From Laetiporus sulphureus 93-53 (taxonomy: Eukaryota > Basidiomycota > Agaricomycetes > Polyporales > Laetiporaceae): a DNA stretch of 64,000 nucleotides. The notes below the pieces were generated by a model. The model had not been told where the DNA came from. It was given only the letters and a program-made list of their open reading frames with translations, and did not search any database. Of the stretch, positions 8,130 to 64,000 are shown one piece after another. Every line of letters starts with the position of its first letter. The stretch's first letter is position 1. The DNA lies in the NCBI RefSeq assembly GCF_001632365.1, contig NW_024468560.1:174388-238387 (forward strand), given 5' to 3'. A program made the position numbers and the translations under genes.

Positions 8130-9837
8130 ATGGACTCAAAGTCGCAGTCCCTGCCTGGTGCGTTTTTTGGTGGAGCCACTCGAGCCCGTAACCATGCGCA
8201 TCGCTTTGGTCGCGTGAGTATGACTGGGTCCATTCAGATATCCGCATCTAATGTACGTATTCAGCTAATAGTGGCCTGCATCATCGTACAAATCATTATC
8301 TTCATCTACCATCTCACGGGCCCACCAAAGTCGCTATCTCGCTCATTGGGTCTGAACACGGAGCCAGATTTCTCCCATCTTGCCGACCACTGCGCCCACG
8401 TTTCCCCGATACGTGCTAATTCTTTCGTGCGGCGGCAGCAAGCGCTTGCGGAGACCCTTCATTCGCTGAATGCTTCAGCCTACATTGCCGAGCCCGGCGC
8501 GAGCGCCAGTTATTTTGCTAATCTGTCAGAGGCGCAATGGTTCCTTTCGGAACGACCACTGTTGCTTATCATCTCACCTGAGGTCGATGCTGAAGACCAG
8601 GTGAAGGCTCGTGTCTCAATATTGACGCCGGCATTCGAGGCTACTCGCGCAAAGCTGCTTTCCATTCCAAGTGCTTCTGATATATCATTTCCAGCATGGT
8701 CGGAAGACTGGACCCCTATGATGTGGCGCTGTCCGCAATTCCTCACCTGCGGGAAGGAGCAATATTCCTCGACGGGATGCTGAGGAGCTTTGTTGCGGAC
8801 GGCCTTCAGAAGGCATCACCAGAGTCCAAGGTGACGCTTGCGCCTGTTGAGATCCGGCAGCTCAGGGAGAGAAAAATCGAGGAGGAGCTCAAGATCATGA
8901 AATGCGTGAATGAGGTGAGTTGCCAGCCGTACATTGAGCTTTCCAGTATCCATTCAGAAGTCATGTCAGGTCACCGTTCTAGCTATTCGTGCAGTACGCG
9001 AGAACATATACATAGGTATGCGTGTATTCGATGCTCGTCAGCTCATCGTGAAGGTGCTCTCCGCTGCCGGGCTGCAAAACCCGAGCGCCTTCACATTGTT
9101 TGGAGGTGAGATCCCGGCTGCGTTGTTTTCATTTCAAAGTCTCACTTTGGGTAGAAAATGCTGCTCTTCCTCATGGCACCGGCACGGATCGTGTCCTGGG
9201 GGCGCACGACTTTGCTTTGATTGATTGCGATGGATCACTGCACGGTTATCACAGCGACGTCACAAGAGTATGTGTCTACACTTTTTCAAGCCTCAACAGA
9301 CTAATGGTGCTTTCAAGTAGATATTCGCTCTCCCTGGCTCCACGATCCATGCGGCCTACCTGAGATTATGGCATCTAGTGCATTCAGCACAGGCTAATGC
9401 GCTCAACGCCGCACGAAATGGGACAACCACTGCCGAAGTAGACCGTGCTGCGAGAGACACTCGCCGCGCAAGGCTATGCAGAGTATCTCACGCATAGGCT
9501 TGGTCACGGTACGCCATGCTTTTCGAATGAGCGGGCAAACGACTGACGACCCTGATCGCACAGGCATCGGTCTTGATGTTCATGAATCACCATAGCTGCA
9601 TGGAGGCTCCTCAGATGTCATCCTCACAGGACACACATTCTCTGATGAGCCTGGTATCTACATGGAAGGGCAGGTGTGTCGACACGTATGAAATGTTCGA
9701 GATATTGGCTGATAGGATTTACGTAGACGGGCATCAGGTTGGAGGACTGTTTCTACGTAGCTGAGGATGGGAGTGCTGTTTTGCTGACCGCGGGAGTGGG
9801 TGGTGCTGCGACCAGCCCCAGCCCATGGGACCTTTGA
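8130..9837 (+). pseudogene. Membrane-anchored Xaa-Pro aminopeptidase/dipeptidase (M24B), frameshifted
   Basis: The gene resembles fungal M24B 'pita-bread' metallopeptidases that cleave X-Pro bonds. A hydrophobic segment near the start (LIVACIIVQIIIFIYHL) suggests a signal anchor. The creatinase-like N domain (HSLNASAYIAEPGASASYF, LREGAIFLDGMLRSFV) is followed by the catalytic domain. All five dinuclear-metal ligands can be located: D in FALIDCDG, D in YHSDVTR, H in RLGH/GIGLDVHE, E in FSDEPGIY and E in RLEDCFYV. Introns follow KCVNE, LFG, DVTR, RLGH and MEGQ. Breaks: one base missing near 8707 (SED/DPYDV), two bases near 9461 (RDT/LAAQGY), and TAC to TAG in HESP[Y]LHGG near 9593. The stop is TGA 9835-9837. 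The splice sites look usable, so decay appears recent. Confidence 0.8.
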
Positions 9838-10089
9838 GTCCATGACATTACCGGCAGCTCTCATTCCCCCATAGTATGCTGAATGTGGCTGCGAGGAGGG
9901 CTGTGAGGAGTGCACTCGGCAGTGTTTGCGCCGTCGATAACATAGACTAGGCTGTAATTGTAATCGTGGGAATATACTCACTATTGGAATTCGATGGTCC
10001 CACGCTGATCATGTTTTCTCGAGTCTACATTTCCTAGCCAAGTTTTTGTTGTGCTTTCACATTCCCGAGTATCCTCTGCCATTGTAAAT

Positions 10090-11264
10090 ATGCCTTCTCC
10101 AGATGAAGCCTCAACTTCTTCTTCTTCAGACCCTGCCCCAACGTTCGAGTCGCTTGGGCTGATAGATCCGCTGCTGGAGGCCGTCAAGCAAATGAACTTC
10201 AATACACCTATGGATATTCAACTCCAGTCTCTTCCACATGCTCGTCAAGGCAGAGACATCATTGGCGTAGCATCTACCAGCTCCGGAAAGACAGCTGCTT
10301 TTGCACTTCCTATCCTCCAAAAGTTATGGGAGGATCCAAAGGGTCTGTTCGCGTGTGTTCTTTCGCCCGCCAGGGAACTTGCCTACCAGATCTCGCAGCA
10401 GTTTGAGGGTCTCGGTTCATCCATGGGGGTGCGGTGTGCAACTATTGTGGGAGGGATGGACACGATGGCCCAATCGGTCGCACTAGCAAAACGGCCGCAT
10501 ATCGTGGTTGCTACTCCCGGACGGCTGAATGACCACCTAGAGAACACTAAGGGATTCAGTTTGAGAGGCCTGAAATTTCTGGTGAGCATCTGTGCATATC
10601 TCGTTGCCTTTGGCGTAAGGTTGACTTGTTGCCAGTAGGTTTTGGACGAAGCGAATAGATTGCTAGACATTGGATTTCGGGCCTATCATTGACAACATAT
10701 TAAAGGTCATACCGAGGGAACGTACGACATACCTGTTCTGTGCAACGATGACCACAAAGGTTGCCAAGCTTCAGCGAGCGAGCTTGTCCAATTCCGTCCA
10801 TATAGAAGTCTCAGAAAAGTACGTCTCTCACCGTAGCTTCCATTTGAGCAATTCTGACGGTGACATTCAGGTATTCTACAGTGTCGACATTACTGCAATA
10901 CTATTTGTTCATCCCGCTAGTCCAGAAAGATGTCCATTTCATATATTTGGCCAACATCCTGGCACAAAACTCAATCATTATATTCACCCGGACCGTCCAT
11001 GATGCTCAAAGGTGCGATGATTTTTCATATTCCGAAGACGCTTTGCTCATTTTTTTGCACTGTGAAGACTGTCGATTGTTTTGCGCACTCTCAGATTCCC
11101 CGCGGTCCCCTTGCATGGCCAGTTGAGCCAAAGTGCCCGTTTGGGTGCACTGGCAAAGTTGAAGAGTTGATCGCAACTGATGTCGCCAGCCGGTCAGGTC
11201 TTTGATATACTACAGCTTCTACTCTCACTCATGTTCCGCATTACAGAGGTCTGGATATCCCGCA
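10090..11264 (+). pseudogene. RRP3: DEAD-box RNA helicase of the RRP3/DDX47 type, 3'-truncated and catalytically mutated
   Basis: RRP3/DDX47 helicases act in the nucleolus in pre-18S rRNA processing. From the ATG at 10090 the Q-motif region (TFESLGL...[12 protein letters not shown]) leads to the Walker A, which reads ASTSSGKT instead of AxTGSGKT; then [18 protein letters not shown] and, after an intron, [10 protein letters not shown], i.e. DEAD changed to DEAN. A one-base insertion after DIGF shifts the frame before [20 protein letters not shown]. Later blocks are [50 protein letters not shown] and RGLDIP. Homology stops there, near 11264, so motif VI and the C-terminus are absent, and the sequence runs straight into H+-ATPase sequence. 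Both motif changes fit single G-to-A transitions. Confidence 0.82.
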
Positions 11265-20612: not shown

Positions 20613-21711
20613 TCAGGATGATGCCTCCTCCTGTTTCGCAGCTTCTACTGCAGAATGAGCCGCTCCGGGTGGCGCCACGCCATCCACATTCTCTTCCGCA
20701 GCGGGCTGTGCATTCTTGCCCTTGCGCGTGGAGGCGGATGGTACACTTTTTCCTATGGCAATGGTGTCTCATCTGGGTCCTTCTGAAGTGCATACCTTCT
20801 TTTTCTTCTTATCCGGCTTCACGTTAGATCGGGGTAAGCCAACTGCTCGACCTTTCGCCACTCCTCACTCTCCCTAAAGGTCTTCTGAACAGGCTCGAGC
20901 AGGCGCACGATCGCATCTGCCACCGCCGTCTTCACAATCCTTCAGGTGTACCTTCTTCTCCGGAAACTCCTGCTCGAGCTGCGAAAAGTTCTGGCAGTGC
21001 AACGAGCCTCCGTACTCCTCCTTCCTAAAGACGCTAAACACGGTGCCCTCCGGCGCACCAGGGAGCGCGAAGTGCGTCTGGTTGCCGAGCGCCTCCATGC
21101 CTTCGTCCGCGTCTGCACCGGTGTCGCCATGAATGTGCTCGAGGTGCATCTCGCTGATCGGTATGAGCACAGCCTTCACGAACGCGAGCACGCCGTTGTC
21201 TGCCGCGTTGCCCTCCTCGCAGAAGGCCTTCTTGATCTTGCACCACACGACGTCGGGCACGTCGAGGAAGTCGATTTTTGAGTCGGGGTCCGAGGAGGAC
21301 ATCTTGCCCCCGCCGAGGCCTGGCACCATCGGGTTCATGAGGTGCGCACGCTTCGCGTAGCTGAGGCATGGGAGGTAGAGCTCGGCGAAGGTGAAGATCT
21401 TGCGCTGTGGCGGAACACGCATTATAGCCGCGGTTGGACAACGTGAGGAGGAAGAGACCATGTACCTGGTCGACACCACCGAATTGAAAGTCACAGCCGA
21501 GGTGCTCATCCAGCGCTTGCAGACCCGGGTAGAGCGAACCACTCAGCAAGGGGCTCTCTACCTGCTTCACAACCTCCGCATCGGCCTTCTTGGCGTCGTG
21601 CTCCGTGACGAAGTGATTTGAAGACGGTCAAGAGGACAAGTTGGTAGAATCTTGTGCGGTAGGCGACGAGTTCGAGTGGTGCTTTGAGGTTGTCGAGGAA
21701 TGCGTGAACAT
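20613..21711 (-). pseudogene. Tyrosyl-tRNA synthetase (eukaryotic cytosolic type), N-terminus missing
   Basis: TyrRS charges tRNA-Tyr. The minus-strand sequence begins exactly at a splice acceptor (ccaacag at 21712) with VHAFLDNLKAPLELVAYR, then [58 protein letters not shown], the KMSSS catalytic loop in [69 protein letters not shown] and a Lys-rich tail, with a final exon rich in Ala and Glu to TGA 20615-20613. Upstream exons carrying the HIGH-like tyrosine/ATP motif are absent, and after TVFKSL about 30 residues are skipped at 21635. Single-base frameshifts occur near 20930 and 20835. Confidence 0.82.
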
Positions 21712-23260
21712 CTGTTGGGAGGGTCAATAATCATGCGCGGTCATCATCGGATTGGAAACGATGATACTTATTGGTAGTGATAACATACTAAGTCTTCACC
21801 CAGGTTGTCCAAGGCCGCGCTTTTGAGCCCAAGCTCGGCCAAGCTGAGCCCGGCCGAGCGCCGAGCTCAAGCCCTCTCTAGCTGCCATACAGGCCGGCTT
21901 CCAATTGGGGAAAGCCCGAGCTCTCCGTGGTCACGTGACTCTTCGTAGATTTTGCTTGGGTACGACGCAAGCAAAACTTCTCTCATCCTCCTGGCTGCAC
22001 TGTTCGATGCACCCTGCTCCAGAATGACTATGGAGATCTGCCCCCGGAACTACGGGTCATATCTGTGCAGGTTCTGCGTCAGTAGTTTCTCATATCTCAA
22101 AGGATGTGTCTGTGCTATATGTCTTTACTTTCAGTTCCACCGACTAAAATTCCGACGGACATGCTGCTTTGACTGCATTGCAACTCATTGGGTCAGCTTG
22201 TGAGTTCCTTCCTTGATTGAACACTTTTCCAGAATTGCTATCACGATGCATGTGGTGTTCGCAGTCCACTGCCTCCGAGGAAGTGATAGATGCCAACAAA
22301 TGCATTCGAAATGCGATCTTTTTGTCTGTGCCTATGTCAACTCCGTTAGGGAATGAAAGGATCTACTATCCCTGTCCATTCACATGTTACCTTCAAGCTG
22401 TCGGCATTCAGGGTGGATCTCTGCTCTGGTGCTCACGGGGTTTTCGTGGCATCGTCAGCTCACCATCTCCTCGATGTGTCAATACATCAGTGCCGTTTCT
22501 TGTCGTTGCGATGTCAACGCATGATGTACTTTTCCTCCAGACTGTGATGACAGTGCATGATAGCACGACTGCACATTTATATTGAGGCTCCAACGTTGGA
22601 CGTCCTCACCTGTATATTGTGGTATGAGGTGTTTGGAACTGTAGTGATTGGTGAAAGGCGCATCAGTGCCTGACAGTGTCCCGTCAGTGTGGCCTACAAG
22701 TATGAATGCAGAATGTGCCACTCCAAAAGGCCACCTTAGCTCGAGTTATCTTGAATCCGCCGTCTTTCCTATACAATGCTTCACATGCTAATCCATATCA
22801 ACCCGCAGTCATCAGACCCATAAGCTTCATCCCATCTGGGATCTACCCATGTTCCGCCAAATGTGCTGACCAACTCACACTGTGCACCGAATGTCTTAGT
22901 CACGTACCCCGCAACTTTTCATCTGCATTCTCATCAACCATCCTCTTCCCATGCAAGCCACTCTGTCTGCCCCTGCATCACTTCCTCAACGCTATCCACT
23001 TGCGATTGATTGACGACATCGCCGCTGAAACTATGCTCAAGCCTCATAGTCGACGCGCGACGTGCCCCAGGGACGGCTTCCTTTTCGGCCCTTCTCCCGC
23101 AGTGTCTGAATCTGAACGGGGCGCAGGCTGGGAGCATCGCGCGCAAGGTCGCCCGCTTATACATGTACACTTGGATGTGCAACTCGCCCATCATCATATC
23201 TGCCGCTCAGTCTGATCTTGTTCCAGACTCAGGTCCTCATGCTGTCTCTTGCCGCTCTGC
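21712..23260. other. Intergenic stretch
   Basis: No family is recognised. At 21824-21892 there is a cluster of near-palindromic GAGCC/AAGCTCGGC motifs, including GCTCGGCC and its inverse GGCCGAGC about ten bases apart. The longest open frame (22706-23215 plus, 169 codons) has a shadow-like composition. Nothing else can be supported. Confidence 0.45.
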
Positions 23261-26368: not shown

Positions 26369-27612
26369 ATGATGCAGCTCACTCTCACATTCGCGGCTCT
26401 TCTGTTATTTGTATCGATCGCGGTGAACGCATTGCCTACCGCTTATGGCAGCGCACTGGGTGAGCATTAGTTGGTAGCTCAAGACATTCGATAGATTAAT
26501 GATAATGTTCGTGCGGACGAGCAGGTCGCAGGTACTCTTCTTATGAAAAGGACATAGTATCCACGGTAGGCGAGCCTCTCACGGATGCGATCTTGGATCA
26601 CGTACCAACGTCGTGGTAAGTCAGCTGTTATGATACGCTTAAGAAACGATGCATATTGAGGGACCGATTGCAAAGGAGAATGTGACAGATGCTGTCCCTA
26701 TCATTTATCAGCGAGACGGTAGGTATCTACCAGCGCGAAGGTGAGAACTTCTCCACATGAGTTGTGATATCCCGGTTCACCACATTATTAGACTCAGTCA
26801 CAGATACTCTTCCCATCATCTACCAGTGCGAAGTAACGGATATGTCGGCCATAAAATTGCCTTCGTTCTCATAAATTGTCTAGAGGGCATCGACGCCATT
26901 CCCATTCTTTACCAGTGGGAAGGCACGTATCACCTGCTGCGATGACATTATGTCTACTAACTATCCCGTCAGACGCCATCACCGACACTATCACCAACAC
27001 TATTCCCATTATTTACCAGCGTGAAGGTACGCATCATCTTCAAGACTGATACCGCTACTGCTGACTTGTTTCTTCAGAGGCCGTCACCGATACTCTTCCT
27101 ATCATCTACCAACGCGAGGGTAAGTATCTGTCAGCAAGAGCTGTCATCGATACTGCGATTACCAACTCGTTGCTTTAGAAGCCATCTTTCCTGACATGTG
27201 AGATAGAACCTATCAGTGACACTCTCCCGATCATCTATCAACGTGACGGTACATAGTCTTTTACAGCAATGACTTGTCTTGTGGTGCTGAGTATCGTTGC
27301 AGAAGCTGTGACTGACATGCTTCCTTTAATCTACCAGCGCGTCGGTAAGCAACAAGCTTTGAACCGATTTCTAACCCTCACTAACATTGATACCAGAGGA
27401 TATCGCCGATGCCATCTCAATCATCTACTCCCATGATGATATGTGCATAAACTACTGGCCTGGTCTCACGGATTGTCTGAGATGTCGTGTGAGAAGCGCT
27501 GACCGACGCCGTTCCCATCATCTACCAAAGCAAGGGTGAGATGCCATCATCTGCTTCTCTTAATCTTCCTAGATCTCATGTCCACCCAAGCTTGAGAACG
27601 TCCACGCAGTAG
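26369..27612 (+). CDS. Secreted repeat-peptide precursor built from tandem 42-nt micro-exons
   Basis: Exon 1 (26369-26459) encodes a textbook signal peptide (MMQLTLTFAALLLFVSIAVN then ALPTAYGSAL) and ends one base into a codon at a GTGAGC donor. About ten repeat exons follow, most exactly 42 nt, starting with two bases and ending with one base of split codons (phase 1-1), so each adds 14 residues or can be skipped without a frame change. Clean units: 26973-27026 (54 nt), 27078-27119, 27207-27248, 27303-27344 and 27494-27535; 26884-26922 is 39 nt with a GC donor. The consensus is E/D-A-V-T-D-T-L-P-I-I-Y-Q-R-E/D. A candidate exon 2 at 26525 carries RRYSSYEKDIV. A short last exon (27573-27595) or read-through to TAG 27610-27612 ends the frame. 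Units at 26572, 26677, 26792 and 27397 have imperfect splice sites. I know of no described family with this layout; a ribosomal peptide precursor is one possibility, but no cleavage or tailoring enzyme is evident nearby. Confidence 0.6.
26572..27535 (+). repeat. Tandem array of about 90-130-bp units, each one micro-exon plus intron
   Basis: Unit starts are 26572, 26677, 26792, 26884, 26973, 27078, 27207, 27303, 27397 and 27494, with a truncated unit at 26725-26740 (IYQRE plus a GTGAGA donor) and a decayed half unit near 27179. Intron lengths are 50-55 nt between most neighbours. The coding part is conserved far better than the introns, which have little similarity to each other. That contrast suggests selection on the peptide or ancient duplication. 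Confidence 0.8.
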
Positions 27613-28291: not shown

Positions 28292-29736
28292 TTACAAACT
28301 GGTGCAGTCAACGGTGCCTTCAAACTCAGCTGACCTCAGATATGCATCCACACGCTCACCAATCTCGATTGAGACAGGAGTGAGCGTCCTCTCAGTTCTC
28401 TCCATTCTTTTGTCGGCCACCTGCCACCACGAAGCCTTGGCTTCATATCCATCATACCAATCACGAAACCATTCCCAATGGTATGCGTCGTCCAGAGTCT
28501 CCACAGCAACGTATCGCAGATTCGGCATTGCCCTCACCAGACAATTAGGCCAATCTGCCAGGACAGATCGGGAGGCATGATCTGCGATCACAATTCGTAA
28601 TCGAATGCAGTGAATGGCGGACATGCTCAAAAGAGTGGGTAATACCATCTGACAAAGGAGGTGTTAACGTCAAAACATTTGATAAGACTGAGCTTACAGA
28701 CCTTCCACACATTGAGCCATTTAGTGAATTCTTGGCTAGACTGTGTCTCATCAAGACCGAAGATGAGGATGAGATACCGCAACCTTGTAGCATTGTGGGC
28801 TAATTTCCTCCAAAATCCAGCCCCCAGCTGCTTGCCCAACTTCAATGACAGCACAATGGGTGCTGTATTCTTGATCACAAACAACGCAGGCTTTGCTGAA
28901 TTAACCGCACCAACCATATTGAGAGTCAGATGCCGGACTGAGGAAGTGATGATCCAAGGGTGATGATAGGCAACGTTACCCATGTCGAGGAACTCCAATC
29001 GTGGCCAGCAAACACTGGCATCTTTCCACGGCAGGGAAGAGGTCACTGCTTCTAGTCGCAATCGTCGCACGTTTGGAAATGTCGAGGCAAATGAGGCCAT
29101 GGGTATGTTGCACTCTGAAATGTATAGATAGTGAAGTTCTGGCCACTGTAGGTGCGATGAGGGATGTCCAGGGCTAGCTATCTGAGATGACACAGTGGCC
29201 GAAGTATCAGAGAACAGGAGGTGTGTATGGCTGCCTGGATGAGAAGCGACCACACTCTGCAGGTGTAAAGCACGGGGTCTGGTGTGCAATCCTTGCAACA
29301 TGAGCAAGGAGTCTTTGCCAGCATGACTGAGTTCTAGTCTGACCAGCTGTGGTAACGCAGACACGATGCCAATGAGACGTGGCTCCCTTTTCACCATCCG
29401 CTCGATCATACCCAGCTTCAAGCATCTGATCCTAGAAGCAAACGGGTGTCCAAGCACTTCCACAATTTGAGAAAGATGGTCTTGTTCTACCGCACTCAGA
29501 GCGGCAGAATGAACACTGAACTCTCGAACGTATGTTAAGCGGTGAGCATTTTCTCGGAGTAGCATCCAGCACACTGCCTTGACTTGTTTGAGGTGTCGGA
29601 TGATTACGGTATGATAGACCTGACGTATTGCTAGGGGATGGATGCGCTTGGATGTAAGAGATAAACGAACAGCTTCAGTGGTTGACAGATAGGTGAAGAT
29701 TTCGGCAAGCACATCGTCGTTGATATTGATAAACAT
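28292..29736 (-). CDS. F-box protein with leucine-rich-repeat-like body, intact
   Basis: Two minus-strand exons, 29736-28702 and 28648-28292, join in phase 0 across a 53-nt GT-AG intron to give 463 residues. The N-terminus INDDVLAEIFTYLSTTEAVR, with LSLTSKRIHPLAIRQVYHTV, is an F-box-like motif, which would bind Skp1 in an SCF ubiquitin ligase. The rest has leucine-spaced segments (LPQLVRLELSHAGKD, WPELHYLYISECNI, FPNVRRLRLEAV, WPRLEFLDMGNV) typical of the large basidiomycete F-box/LRR-like family that recognises unknown substrates. The frame is clean throughout, unlike most genes in the window. It neighbours the intact cyclophilin gene. Confidence 0.8.
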
Positions 29737-30182
29737 CTGAATATCATGGTGAGAACTATTGTGGCATAGGAGGACTGAAAACTATACCACGTACCACGGG
29801 AATGACTGCTCTGTTGGCAGTGAAATCGGCAGTGACACCTGCAGCAATGGATGAGATGTCAGGACTGCAGGCTTTACATGGACCTGAAAGATGCTATCGG
29901 GAGTTCGTCTGCCATTCTCTCACGGATCCACACATCCGCTGTTCTCTCACACGGCTCTTCATGACACCCAGCATCTTCACATGCTCGCAGGCATCACATT
30001 GATACCTCAAACATTTAACTCTTCACGAATATCCGATGACGTCGAGGATAGTTCTGAATTTCTACTATCACACAGAGGTGCATAACCTCCACTGGCCAGA
30101 CATAATTGCTTTCTTTTCATCATTTCTGCATCTCTGGCGGCGCCATATCCACAAGCCGTCATCTCAAAGCCACCACAACAGT
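29737..30182. other. Intergenic region between F-box gene and cyclophilin
   Basis: No coding signal on either strand. It holds the promoter of the minus-strand F-box gene and the 3' end of the minus-strand cyclophilin gene. Confidence 0.5.
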
Positions 30183-59870: not shown

Positions 59871-60073
59871 TTGTCATGCGCTTGTACGCGTGTGTGTTGC
59901 TGCATCATGCTCAACCCGTGGTAGAGAGTCTTCGTCCGCTGTTCAGGGTCGGCCTCCTCGTCCCTGTCCTTCCGCACCGGCACAGGACGCTACTATTACA
60001 TCTAGAGATACAGATCAAGTGGATGCTGAATGAGACTGCCACAGCATCCTTCCACTTATAAACAGCAAGAAAC

Positions 60074-62146
60074 TTATGCCTTTCGCATGTGACGGTGTTT
60101 GTCCAAAGCGCACTCTAAGGTGCGGTTGTCGTCTTGAACACTGATCGTCAAAGGCCGCCTTCCCGTAAAACCTATATCCGGATGAAGGCATACGTCGGGG
60201 TAGCGGGCTTCTCCTGCTCTTCCTCCCCAGTCGAAATCGATGATGATCACCTTTGTCTTGTCCGATTCGGGTATGAGGAGATTGACATCTCACAGGTCAC
60301 CGTGAACCAGTCCTTTGCTGTGGAACTCGTCGACGACCTTTTTCAAACCATCCCTCCACTCTGTCAGATATCCGTGGCTTTCGAGCAAGGACTGGCCTTG
60401 GACGTATTCCATCGCCACAATACTCCACCCATCTGAGACCCTATCGAACCCGAGCAGCCTTGGCGCATGCCCTCTCTCTGCGCAAAACTCATGCAGCTCT
60501 CTGGTGTAGCGCCGCGTGACTTTGATGATGATGTACTCTTGGTCCGCATCCAACCTCTTTGCGAAATAGACAAGACGGTCTTCTCGCGATAACAGTACTT
60601 CTAAGATCTTGGTCCCGAGAGGCGGCGATCCAGCGGTGGTCGATGTAACGCTAATGATGTTCGGGAGATACATTTCTTTGAGCGACAGTGAAGTAAGGCC
60701 ATCTCTGCTGGCCAACTCCCGCATCTTGGCAGTATCTTCACGGATCTTTTGTCGGACAAATACCGCAACCTTGAATGCGCGAATGAGCATTCTGCGGTAT
60801 ACCATATCATTGCTCGACCCTGTCGGGCTGACCAGCCACATTGGCGGTGTCAGAGGTACTACCCGATAGTTGCCCATAGCAACTACCGCATGAAACGTTA
60901 TAACTGCGCCTGTACGTAGCTCTTCAGAACCATGTTCATCACTCACAAACAATTTCTACGTGAGACTCACCAGCAACTGTAACGAGGAGAGAAGGCACCC
61001 TCCACCCAGAATACAACTTTTCGTTGACACTGCTCTCCTCGACTGCCATCCGGTGGAAATGAGCAATATAGGACACGCCCTCCGGCACAGGATCACCTGA
61101 GGTCCCTTGCTCGTTCTTGAATTTGAACATAAGATCTGCAGCTCCTGTGACGCATACTGAGTTGCCGTCCGTTTTCGAGTTGCCATCAGCATCAGCCCTC
61201 CTGACACATATGCAATCAGGATCGGGATTGGGATCGTTGATATCGCATTCTCTGCCGTCATTGAATATCTTCTGAAGAAACCGTAGCCCAGCGTTCATCC
61301 GCGCTAGATCATCTGCGTAGTATAGGCACATAGCATCCGCGAAATCACGCACAAGTGTGAAAAATTTCGCGTCCTTCTCGGCGTGGACATTTTCGCTTTC
61401 CTCAGCGGCGAGCATATCCGTCAAAACGCCGAAGCCGTCATACAGAAGGGCAATAGGAGCAATCTCCGGCTCGGACACTGGGCGATCATTCAGCACACGA
61501 TGTTCAGCTATCGTCTGCAGCCTCGCGAACGTAGACGCATGGGCATAGTTGGACGGGGAATTTAGTGCAATCTTCTGTGTCTTGATGCGCTTCAACACCT
61601 CGTCCTCTGTGGTGGAAGGCCTGCGTTTGGCGGGGATGATTGGGTAAGCTGTTGGGTATTCCCGTCAGGCTAGTATCGTGACACCGTCTGTGAAACGACT
61701 CACCTAGAGGACGCGCCACGAGCACAAGATGAATCGACATGTCATCCGGGTTCAGTTGATGACAGATCGTGCCGACTTTATACAAGGGGACAATGGGTTT
61801 CGAACCCTCCACACTCGTCTTCACACGATGGGGCAGGGTCTCTTCCGGAAGACGTTCAGTTGGTCAGGCTAATAATGCTCGATCAGAGTGGCGCCATTGC
61901 GACGATGAGAGGGCAACGCACAGTGTAGATAGAAATTTCAGAGGGGGGGATCTTGAGACGCTCGAAAATATACTTCTCCTTCTCGTAGATCTTGCGACGA
62001 ACTTCCGCGAAACTCCATGAGCTATCAACGCGAATCATGCAGATGTTACCGACGACATCGTCTTCGTCCAGGATCATGTAGGCTAGCTCGATATCAGGCA
62101 CAGCTGAGGACTGAGGCGACTGGTGGCACCGCAGACATGAAAGCAT
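60074..62146 (-). pseudogene. Crinkler-header/protein-kinase-like effector with in-frame stops
   Basis: The ATG at 62146 opens a ubiquitin-like Crinkler header (IELAYMILDEDDVVGNICMI, SSWSFAEVRRKIYEKEKYIF), continued after an intron by KVGTICHQLNPDDMSIHLVL. A linker exon begins YPIIPAKRRPSTTEDEVLKR and runs to LLVTVA (about 61633-60970); the next exon carries FHAVVAMGNYRVVPLTPPMW and the kinase-like core: FCAERGHAPRLLGFD, WSIVAMEYVQGQSLLES, DGLKKVVDEFHSKGLVHGDL, then an in-frame TGA, DVNLLIPESDKTKV and IIIDFDWGG, ending at TAA 60076-60074. The TGA after HGDL stands where paralogues have Arg (CGA to TGA). A second stop or missing acceptor lies near 61871 at the first intron. Apart from these the exons are open. 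It is a diverged paralogue of 58559-59190. Confidence 0.68.
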
Positions 62147-63479
62147 TTGCGACCGTTACTTAATGACACGACATTGTAATTGACTGCCTTTTTGGGAAAT
62201 AAAGTTGTCTAATTAGGGCATAGTGTTGCATAGGTCACACTTTAGAACACATTTTCAGTGCATTTGCAGTGGGAATAAATGCCTTCATGCCTGCAGTGTG
62301 GTGTGTGGATGTTTCAGTAGAAGGCATGACGGGCTCAGCGATGTTGCAAGACAGGCGACAACGACGAGGTGGTGGTGATTAGGAGCGAATGCTTGTACGC
62401 GTGTTGGAGCGCAGCGAAATCGGAGGTTGAAAAAGATAAGTCTTTCGCAAGCAAGTTGTTATTCTCCGATATTGCACTTTCAGCTCCGCTGTCCGCTGTG
62501 GCTGACACCCCTGCTCCCAACGCTCAATTTCGCTCGGATCATGCGAGGAAAATCTTGCTGCCATGGGAAAGAACACGTTCCAGATACTGCACGACGCGGT
62601 CTTTCCGCGAACACCTGATGTCTACCGATCTCTGAAAGCGGCCTTGCTACCTCGCGTCGGAAGTACGAGCTGATTGCACTCCCAGATGACAACCCGGAGA
62701 AGATGGATTGCGGAGACCTCGACCTTACTGTGACACGTCCTTCCTGTGACACGTCCTCAAGCATATTGTAACTCCAGAGGTCATGAAGGACGCGCTGGTT
62801 GCACTGTACAGCATACCCTTCGAGGGCGGACACAGCAGCCCTTTCGCCATTCCGGCGGGTATCGTCGCTCGTTATGCTGAGAGTGTACAGTGTACGACCT
62901 GGTGCTCTTGGTGCTGATGGCCAGATTCACGTCAATGTACACCGTCATGTGGACGTGCAAGTATGGGCGGACGAATCTGAATGAAAGCATACGACATTCT
63001 TTTGTGTGGAGACGTTCCTTGGTGTGCACGGGTAGCTCATGCGTCCAGTGCCAACCTGTGCCAACGGATCGTCGGTAACCTTGCATCTCTGGCTTCCTTG
63101 ATTATATCCTTGTTTTTGACCAACTTTCTACAGATTATCGAAACATGGTTCACGTGCGTGGAGGTTCGCGAGGAGTAGCACGGATGTCGACGCATGTTCG
63201 AGTCACAACAATAGCGAAGGCATCGGTAGAAAGACATTACAACATTGCGGCTTGTATTGTTCGTAATATACAAGGGTGTATGATACCCGAGCAGGTATGC
63301 TACGTAGCGTATGGCGTGGCAGAGTCCAAAGAGAGTTCAGAGAGGTTAGGGTGACTACATAGAGCTAGTGGTATGCAAGAAAGGTCCCGGATTTCACACT
63401 GACAGAGAGTCCCGTTCATGGGGAGGGTAGTCCGTGAGGGCTAAAGTTCGACAGGCATCATGAGGGAGTTGGGATGCTT
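62147..63479. other. Stretch with one possible nucleotidyltransferase-like scrap
   Basis: Apart from the fragment at 62561-62746, open frames are short and unrecognised on both strands. The region separates the Crinkler-kinase gene from the terminal secreted protein. Confidence 0.4.
62561..62746 (+). pseudogene. Possible nucleotidyltransferase-fold fragment
   Basis: Two frames, QILHDAVFPRTPDVYRSLKA and, after a one-base shift near 62663, DNPEKMDCGDLDLTVTRP, together recall uncharacterised fungal proteins with a GDxD motif next to PEKxxxGDID, as in nucleotidyltransferase folds. The evidence is a single short motif, so this is only a suggestion. Confidence 0.25.
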
Positions 63480-64000
63480 TTACCCGATGATGATCGTCTC
63501 ATTTGCGACCTGCATGATCGGCATTGGGCCAGCCTGCGTCGAACGTGCGTCAACGTCAGTTGTTCGGCATACGTTGGAGGGCAGGTACTTACGCCTACGA
63601 GAACGAGGTGTGTCACACTGAGAGAGGCCTCACCGGACTCCATGCCGGCTGGCACCTGAACAGTAAAGTTCTGGAATGGGTACCAGTCGCCAGAGCCGTA
63701 TATTGGGTCGTAGGGGCCAGTGTAGAGGATATCACCGAGGACCTCTGTCGTGTCGAAGGAGGCGCAACCGCCCGTGTATCCTGCGCACGACTTGAGGCAG
63801 ATGGCGATGGCGACATCAGTCGAGCCAGTTAGGGTGGCCTACATAGCGATGAGCACGACGACGCTTGGAGATGACGAGAAGGAAAGGACGCACCGGCTTG
63901 TCAACCCGCACGGTGATGTTGCTCCCCGCGCTTACTGTGTCCCCCGCAGCTGGTGCGCTGATGGCGATGTTCTGTGCAAAGGCAGAAAGGGCGAGGCAGC
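63480..64000 (-). CDS. Small secreted Kre9/Knh1-like protein, 5' end beyond the window
   Basis: Minus-strand exons 64000-63894, 63838-63593 and 63533-63480 splice cleanly. The visible start is the end of a signal peptide (CLALSAFAQN), then IAISAPAAGDTVSAGSNITV, ATLTGSTDVAIAICLKSCAG, GGCASFDTTEVLGDILYTGP, YPFQNFTVQVPAGMESGEAS and LSVTHLVLVGAG, closing with MQVANETIIIG at TAA 63482-63480. The opening 'I..P..GxTVxAGSNxTV' beta-sandwich start and the length (about 140 residues after the leader) match a common basidiomycete secreted family related to Kre9/Knh1-type cell-wall proteins; the function is unknown. NIT and NFT are possible N-glycosylation sites. There are no breaks, so this gene looks functional. 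Confidence 0.75.

Follow-up and report, generated by a model that had tools for sequence, protein, structure and literature searches.

A partly eroded array of short repeat exons in Laetiporus sulphureus is related to a UstYa-linked candidate peptide precursor

The window analyzed here is a stretch of 64,000 nucleotides from the genome of Laetiporus sulphureus 93-53 (38.6 Mb in 124 contigs), located on contig C51 (C51:174388-238387). It harbours a leader exon, E1, which is followed on its 3' side by nine recognisable repeat units (U1-U9), all encoded on the plus strand with the pattern A-V-T-D-T-L-P-I-I-Y-Q-R-E. The features of the locus are as follows:

26369..26459, plus strand: leader exon E1, encoding MMQLTLTFAALLLFVSIAVNALPTAYGSAL plus one base, with the donor GTGAGC in phase 1
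26579..26615, plus strand: U0, a decayed unit remnant followed by GTAAGT (score against the units not reached in any of 200 shuffles)
26644..26718, plus strand: U1, 75-nt form with the unit core starting at 26676; donor GTAGGT, and phase 1-1 for this form
26725..26745, plus strand: remnant of a unit 3' end in the U1-U2 intron (0 of 200 shuffles reach its score)
26792..26832, plus strand: U2, 41 nt, donor GTAACG, leaving phase 0
26884..26922, plus strand: U3, 39 nt (37 nt if started at 26886), GC donor
26973..27026, plus strand: U4, 54 nt, phase 1-1
27078..27119, plus strand: U5, 42 nt, phase 1-1, encoding EAVTDTLPIIYQRE
27207..27248, plus strand: U6, 42 nt, phase 1-1
27303..27344, plus strand: U7, 42 nt, phase 1-1
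27397..27442, plus strand: U8, acceptor retained, no in-phase donor at the usual place
27494..27535, plus strand: U9, 42 nt, phase 1-1
27573..27595, plus strand: possible last exon, encoding DLMSTQA and a stop, preceded by a 37-nt intron

The original prediction of a leader exon ending in phase 1 was confirmed by E1 and its donor, and the leader is hydrophobic according to a hydropathy calculation (13-residue mean peak 2.60). U1-U9 occupy all three reading frames and are separated by stop codons, so that only splicing could join all nine. An in-frame path leads from E1 via U1 (75 nt), U2, U3 (37 nt), U4, U5, U6, U7 and U9 to the end and yields a model of 162 residues with eight units, while other paths are also possible at this locus. 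With the 37-nt intron left in place, U9 reads through to a stop at 27610-27612. The 162-residue model does not contain a single dibasic pair, which counts against a precursor function, and an alternative path using U0 carries one RR upstream of the units.

The surroundings of the array in the window are mostly housekeeping in character. Exons with domain matches were observed for DEAD (10009-10638), tRNA-synt_1b (20874-21542), Med13_N (22706-23215, weak and below the cut-off) and F-box (28627-29781), and a 606-aa open frame at 47222-49042 matches Transposase_21 (tnp2). Neither an Rfam nor a tRNA scan yielded a match in the window.

A closer look at the unit boundaries revealed aligned splice signals. 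Counted from the Pro codon, a donor GT is found at +22 in six of the nine units, with GC in a seventh, and an acceptor AG at -22 likewise in six (binomial P of about 3e-6 each for the aligned GT and AG); in U3 and U4 the AG is shifted by whole codons. The branch motif CTAAC/CTGAC starts 16-17 nt before the exon in four of eleven putative introns, and five of the eleven have no branch-like motif. Altogether, six units are of phase 1-1, namely U3, U4, U5, U6, U7 and U9. The locus had been described as about ten clean units bounded by AG and GT; beside these six, three are damaged and two more are present as remnants. In the same way, the expected length of mostly 42 nt holds for U5, U6, U7 and U9, but not for U2, U3 and U4. 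The idea that any subset of exons stays in frame applies to the six units, which could be skipped without a frame shift, but not to U1, U2 and U8: U1 lacks an in-phase acceptor at the usual place and works in a 75-nt version that uses a different AG, U2 is in frame only with the start of U3 shifted 2 nt later, and U8 is probably skipped in splicing. The remnants emerged from ten stretches that were tested against the units by shuffling, two of which passed; the U5-U6 intron appears unit-like by eye and was rejected (P 0.165). The lack of in-phase splice sites at the usual place in three of nine units, together with the two remnants, counts against the precursor reading. The array is thus genuine, though it falls short of the regularity first described, and the locus is losing units.

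The unit peptide, too, is incompletely conserved. The motif Pro-Ile-Ile/Leu-Tyr-Gln, previously considered invariant, is kept in seven of nine units (exceptions: PLIYQ in U7 and SIIYS in U8). Gln follows Tyr in eight of the nine. Arg follows Gln in five, and C, W, H or S is found in the others; as this Arg is never part of a dibasic pair, its proposed role as a processing site is weak. At the codon level, the unit frame showed a pS of 0.75 and a pN of 0.19, resulting in a pN/pS of 0.25 (seven units of 36 nt, 21 pairs; without U3, which is one codon shorter, and without U8), in contrast to 1.15 and 2.47 in the other two frames. Adding U8 raised the ratio to 0.32. The introns and spacers are far less alike, with a mean similarity z of 0.5 over 55 pairs compared to 6.1 for unit pairs. 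Seven of these 55 pairs exceeded z 2: the top value of 6.8 stems from overlapping stretches of the same DNA, and the other six, between 2.0 and 3.3, are too weak to show shared descent. Because the introns have so little mutual similarity, the mode of unit multiplication is not readable from them; as suggested, the array probably grew by exon duplication.

A genome search with the joined units scored four candidate places and returned matches only at the window locus and at C30:205094-205528 (best E of window units against the C30 gene: 7.6e-5). The second place is part of a gene next to a member of the UstYa (DUF3328) family:

C30:204915-205530 (loci L046/L047): Kex2-type repeat precursor with ten LVDDTPEIYKRE-like units
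C30:202431-203128, opposite strand to the precursor and divergent from it: UstYa gene, highest-ranking UstYa match in the genome

The C30 precursor consists of the leader MKFVALSMKLIALAPLVALAVHALPTSG, a phase-1 intron and ten units that are split over two exons and separated by KR or RR, and starts 1.8 kb from the UstYa gene. The match between its unit consensus and that of the window gene was better than in 5000 of 5000 shuffles, and both genes have ALPT after the leader. KEX2-processed repeat proteins (KEPs) combine, by definition, a signal peptide with three or more repeats of at least eight residues between KR, KK, RK or RR (PMC7329392, available part of the text); judged by its predicted product, the C30 precursor fits this pattern. 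A dozen UstYa places with 5 kb on either side make up about 0.3 % of the genome by simple arithmetic on the UstYa matches, hence a position beside UstYa is unlikely to be chance. Elsewhere on C51, beyond the window, a 687-aa frame also gave weak matches to the C30 precursor (E no better than 0.06).

In total, the family search revealed 22 exon-level UstYa matches on nine contigs of this genome. One UstYa frame shares 99 % identity, across 95 % of the query, with LAESUDRAFT_728090 of the polypore Laetiporus sulphureus 93-53. To detect exon arrays, we scanned 14 loci from UstYa regions, one C51 flank and positions 1-60000 of the window (21 tiles). Positions 60001-64000 were covered by scans other than the stricter and looser array detection and the frame-independent repeat scan, and the array and repeat scans were run without the flank C51:238388-248387 (L061), in which low-complexity frames give false arrays. 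In this flank, the low-complexity frames are long and contain repeats such as REAIDK, and one stretch is masked. The stricter detector found two arrays in the 21 tiles, the window locus and the following gene:

C33:121940-122505 (locus L053), minus strand: repeat-exon array, best model five exons with five repeats

Looser detection settings produced many matches in real and reversed sequence alike and were not used; three-unit matches in L047 (minus strand), L051 and L054 and all matches in L061 were attributed to chance or low complexity. The frame-independent scan gave five matches in the real sequence, i.e., the three candidate precursors, an antisense match on C30 and a DNA repeat in L047, compared to eight in the reversed control, of which five fell into the tiles that mirror L047 and the window array, and the remaining three into other places (four copies each). 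The L047 match comprises five copies of an MHYPCCV-like word at positions 8528-9456 of that locus (C30:213528-214456) and is probably a DNA repeat. Of ten UstYa regions scanned, two contain a visible repeat precursor, one of them with one core per exon in its best model, and in the other eight no repeat precursor was visible to these scans. One region, C55:62827-69683 (L048, L049), combines four UstYa matches within 7 kb, and the scans saw no repeat precursor there.

In the C33 model, the exons measure 127, 51, 63, 57 and 47 nt, all junctions are in phase 1, and the donors are GTACGT, GTGAGT, GCAAGT and GCAAGT. Each exon encodes one core of the form [AS]P[TIV]DA[IV]FL, RR is present in all four gaps between cores, and a stop is found shortly past the last core. 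UstYa matches flank the array 1.2 kb upstream and 4.8 kb downstream. If spliced as modelled, the gene has at least three repeats of at least eight residues between dibasic sites, as defined for KEPs. No consensus branch motif was detected in any of the four introns, which counts against the spliced model. Furthermore, introns 1 and 2 contain no in-frame stop, resulting in an unspliced frame of 146 residues that spans exons 1-3; a stop precedes exon 4, and exon 5 uses a different frame. Eroded units were not seen in this array. Both arrays share one core per exon, phase-1 junctions and the use of GT and GC donors, but the C33 gene differs from the window gene in its core (P-T/I/V-D-A-I/V-F-L), in the Arg-Arg between cores and in having UstYa on both sides. 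As no homology between C33 and window units was detectable (P 0.25), their shared architecture could reflect either convergence or a very ancient origin. The repeats of C30 and C33 showed pN/pS values of 0.14 (nine units) and 0.19 (five units); silent sites are near saturation in these as well as in the window units, so the units are old copies.

How does the window gene relate to known precursor classes? With KEPs it shares a leader exon and many short repeated cores, and its eight units, if spliced as modelled, agree with the required tandem repeats; it differs by having one core per exon and no dibasic pair (KR, RR, KK or RK) between cores, and for the latter reason it is not classed as a KEP. 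Dikaritin precursors of the ustiloxin type likewise have Tyr-containing cores, of 13-14 residues in the window gene, and its relative lies 1.8 kb from a UstYa gene. In contrast, none of the 22 family-search matches lies on C51, and a home-made profile search found no UstYa in the window and its 10-kb flanks; the gene is therefore not classed as a dikaritin precursor. It also differs from this class in that its product is not known and its cores lie in separate exons. The C33 gene is at odds with the view that dikaritin-type precursors keep their repeats within one exon. Schistosome micro-exon genes encode a secreted product in many short, frame-keeping exons. If spliced and secreted as proposed, the window gene would be similar in these respects, but each of its exons copies the same repeat and the host is a fungus. 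Moreover, its phase 1-1 units (39-54 nt; six of nine units symmetrical) exceed the usual upper limit of 36 nt for micro-exons (PMC11121469, available part).

A literature search, with subscription papers and preprints mostly outside its scope, showed, among the papers listed, no report of a fungal precursor with one repeat per exon. The words exon, intron and splic- are absent from the available text of PMC7329392 and PMC6339444, and that of PMC9769878 mentions an intron once, concerning cDNA cloning. Protein searches gave no match for the spliced window product at E <= 1 among 468 candidates, which counts against the precursor reading, and none for the C30 precursor at E <= 10 among 7995 candidates scored; such searches can underscore short repeats. 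The searched proteins include Laetiporus sulphureus, where the window and C30 genes may be unannotated.

Taken together, the aligned splice signals, the in-frame path, the pN/pS ratio, the kinship with the C30 precursor and the C33 array speak for a precursor. We moderately favour the reading that the window gene would encode a secreted multicore peptide precursor, related to that on C30 and with one core per short exon; at present, it is best read as an orphan gene that is related to a UstYa-linked precursor and has partly eroded. Both the C30 precursor beside UstYa and the C33 gene in a UstYa cluster support the idea of a secreted precursor, of repeat or RiPP type, in which every repeat has its own exon. 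Loss of some units and the lack of enzyme genes nearby make a dying gene a serious rival, which we regard as unlikely overall: a former copy of a UstYa-linked precursor would have lost its enzyme neighbours, its Kex2 sites and some splice sites, and would yield no product. The two remnants, the donorless U8, the shifted boundaries of U1 and U2, the 162-residue model without a dibasic site and the lack of a UstYa match on C51 are consistent with such decay. However, Gln after Tyr is retained in eight of nine units, where the C30 repeats have Lys or Arg, six units still have intact phase 1-1 sites along an in-frame path, and pN/pS is low, although past constraint is no proof of present function.

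The missing dibasic site, and an Arg after Gln in only five of nine units, would also suit a functional secreted protein of 14-residue repeats that stays uncut and acts at the wall, at the surface or as an effector. This is distinctly improbable given that the genomic relative is a dibasic-site precursor beside UstYa. Least credible, to the point of being nearly dismissed, is a non-coding DNA repeat array with splice sites by chance, against which stand the frame-specific constraint, the aligned splice signals and the spacers, which are far less alike than the units (mean z 0.5 over 55 pairs versus 6.1).

If the window gene is indeed a secreted precursor, it would be transcribed, and splicing would join the exons E1-U1-U2-U3-U4-U5-U6-U7-U9. 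The product would then enter the secretory route, where the D-T-L-P-I-I-Y-Q cores might be freed by a protease without need for a dibasic site and perhaps acquire cross-links at Tyr through a UstYa-type oxidase whose gene lies at another locus. Where most C30 repeats have Lys-Arg, the window units have Gln-Arg, Gln-Cys, Gln-Trp or Gln-Ser. Ordinary cutting by Kex2 at dibasic sites is therefore not to be expected for the window product, and we infer that either another protease acts on it or the protein stays whole.

The wider interest lies in a precursor with one core per exon beside UstYa genes in a mushroom-forming fungus; the window gene, which led to this pattern, may be partly decayed. 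UstYa-type genes are numerous in mushrooms, with 16 in Pleurotus (PMC8893723, available part). According to the available part of PMC7329392, DUF3328 (UstYa) neighbours accompany 6.1 % of KEPs in Basidiomycota compared to 30.1 % in Ascomycota, and cyclisation might hardly occur in Basidiomycota. It is conceivable, and we put this forward only tentatively, that mushroom-forming fungi possess UstYa-linked precursors of a class so far overlooked, with every core encoded by a short symmetrical exon of its own; the C33 gene, in which introns 1 and 2 are open and branch motifs are missing, lowers the probability of this reading. Mining based on gene models would easily miss a gene with one core per exon in a UstYa cluster. 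If the class exists, such mining would miss many of its members, which could partly explain the difference between the two phyla in that part of PMC7329392; the selection of cores to be produced could then lie with splicing, and the introns would keep the repeats apart. If this holds generally, missing fungal peptide precursors could be searched for as short phase-1 exons with a common core in the vicinity of UstYa genes, and these genes would offer a testable case of peptide choice by splicing.
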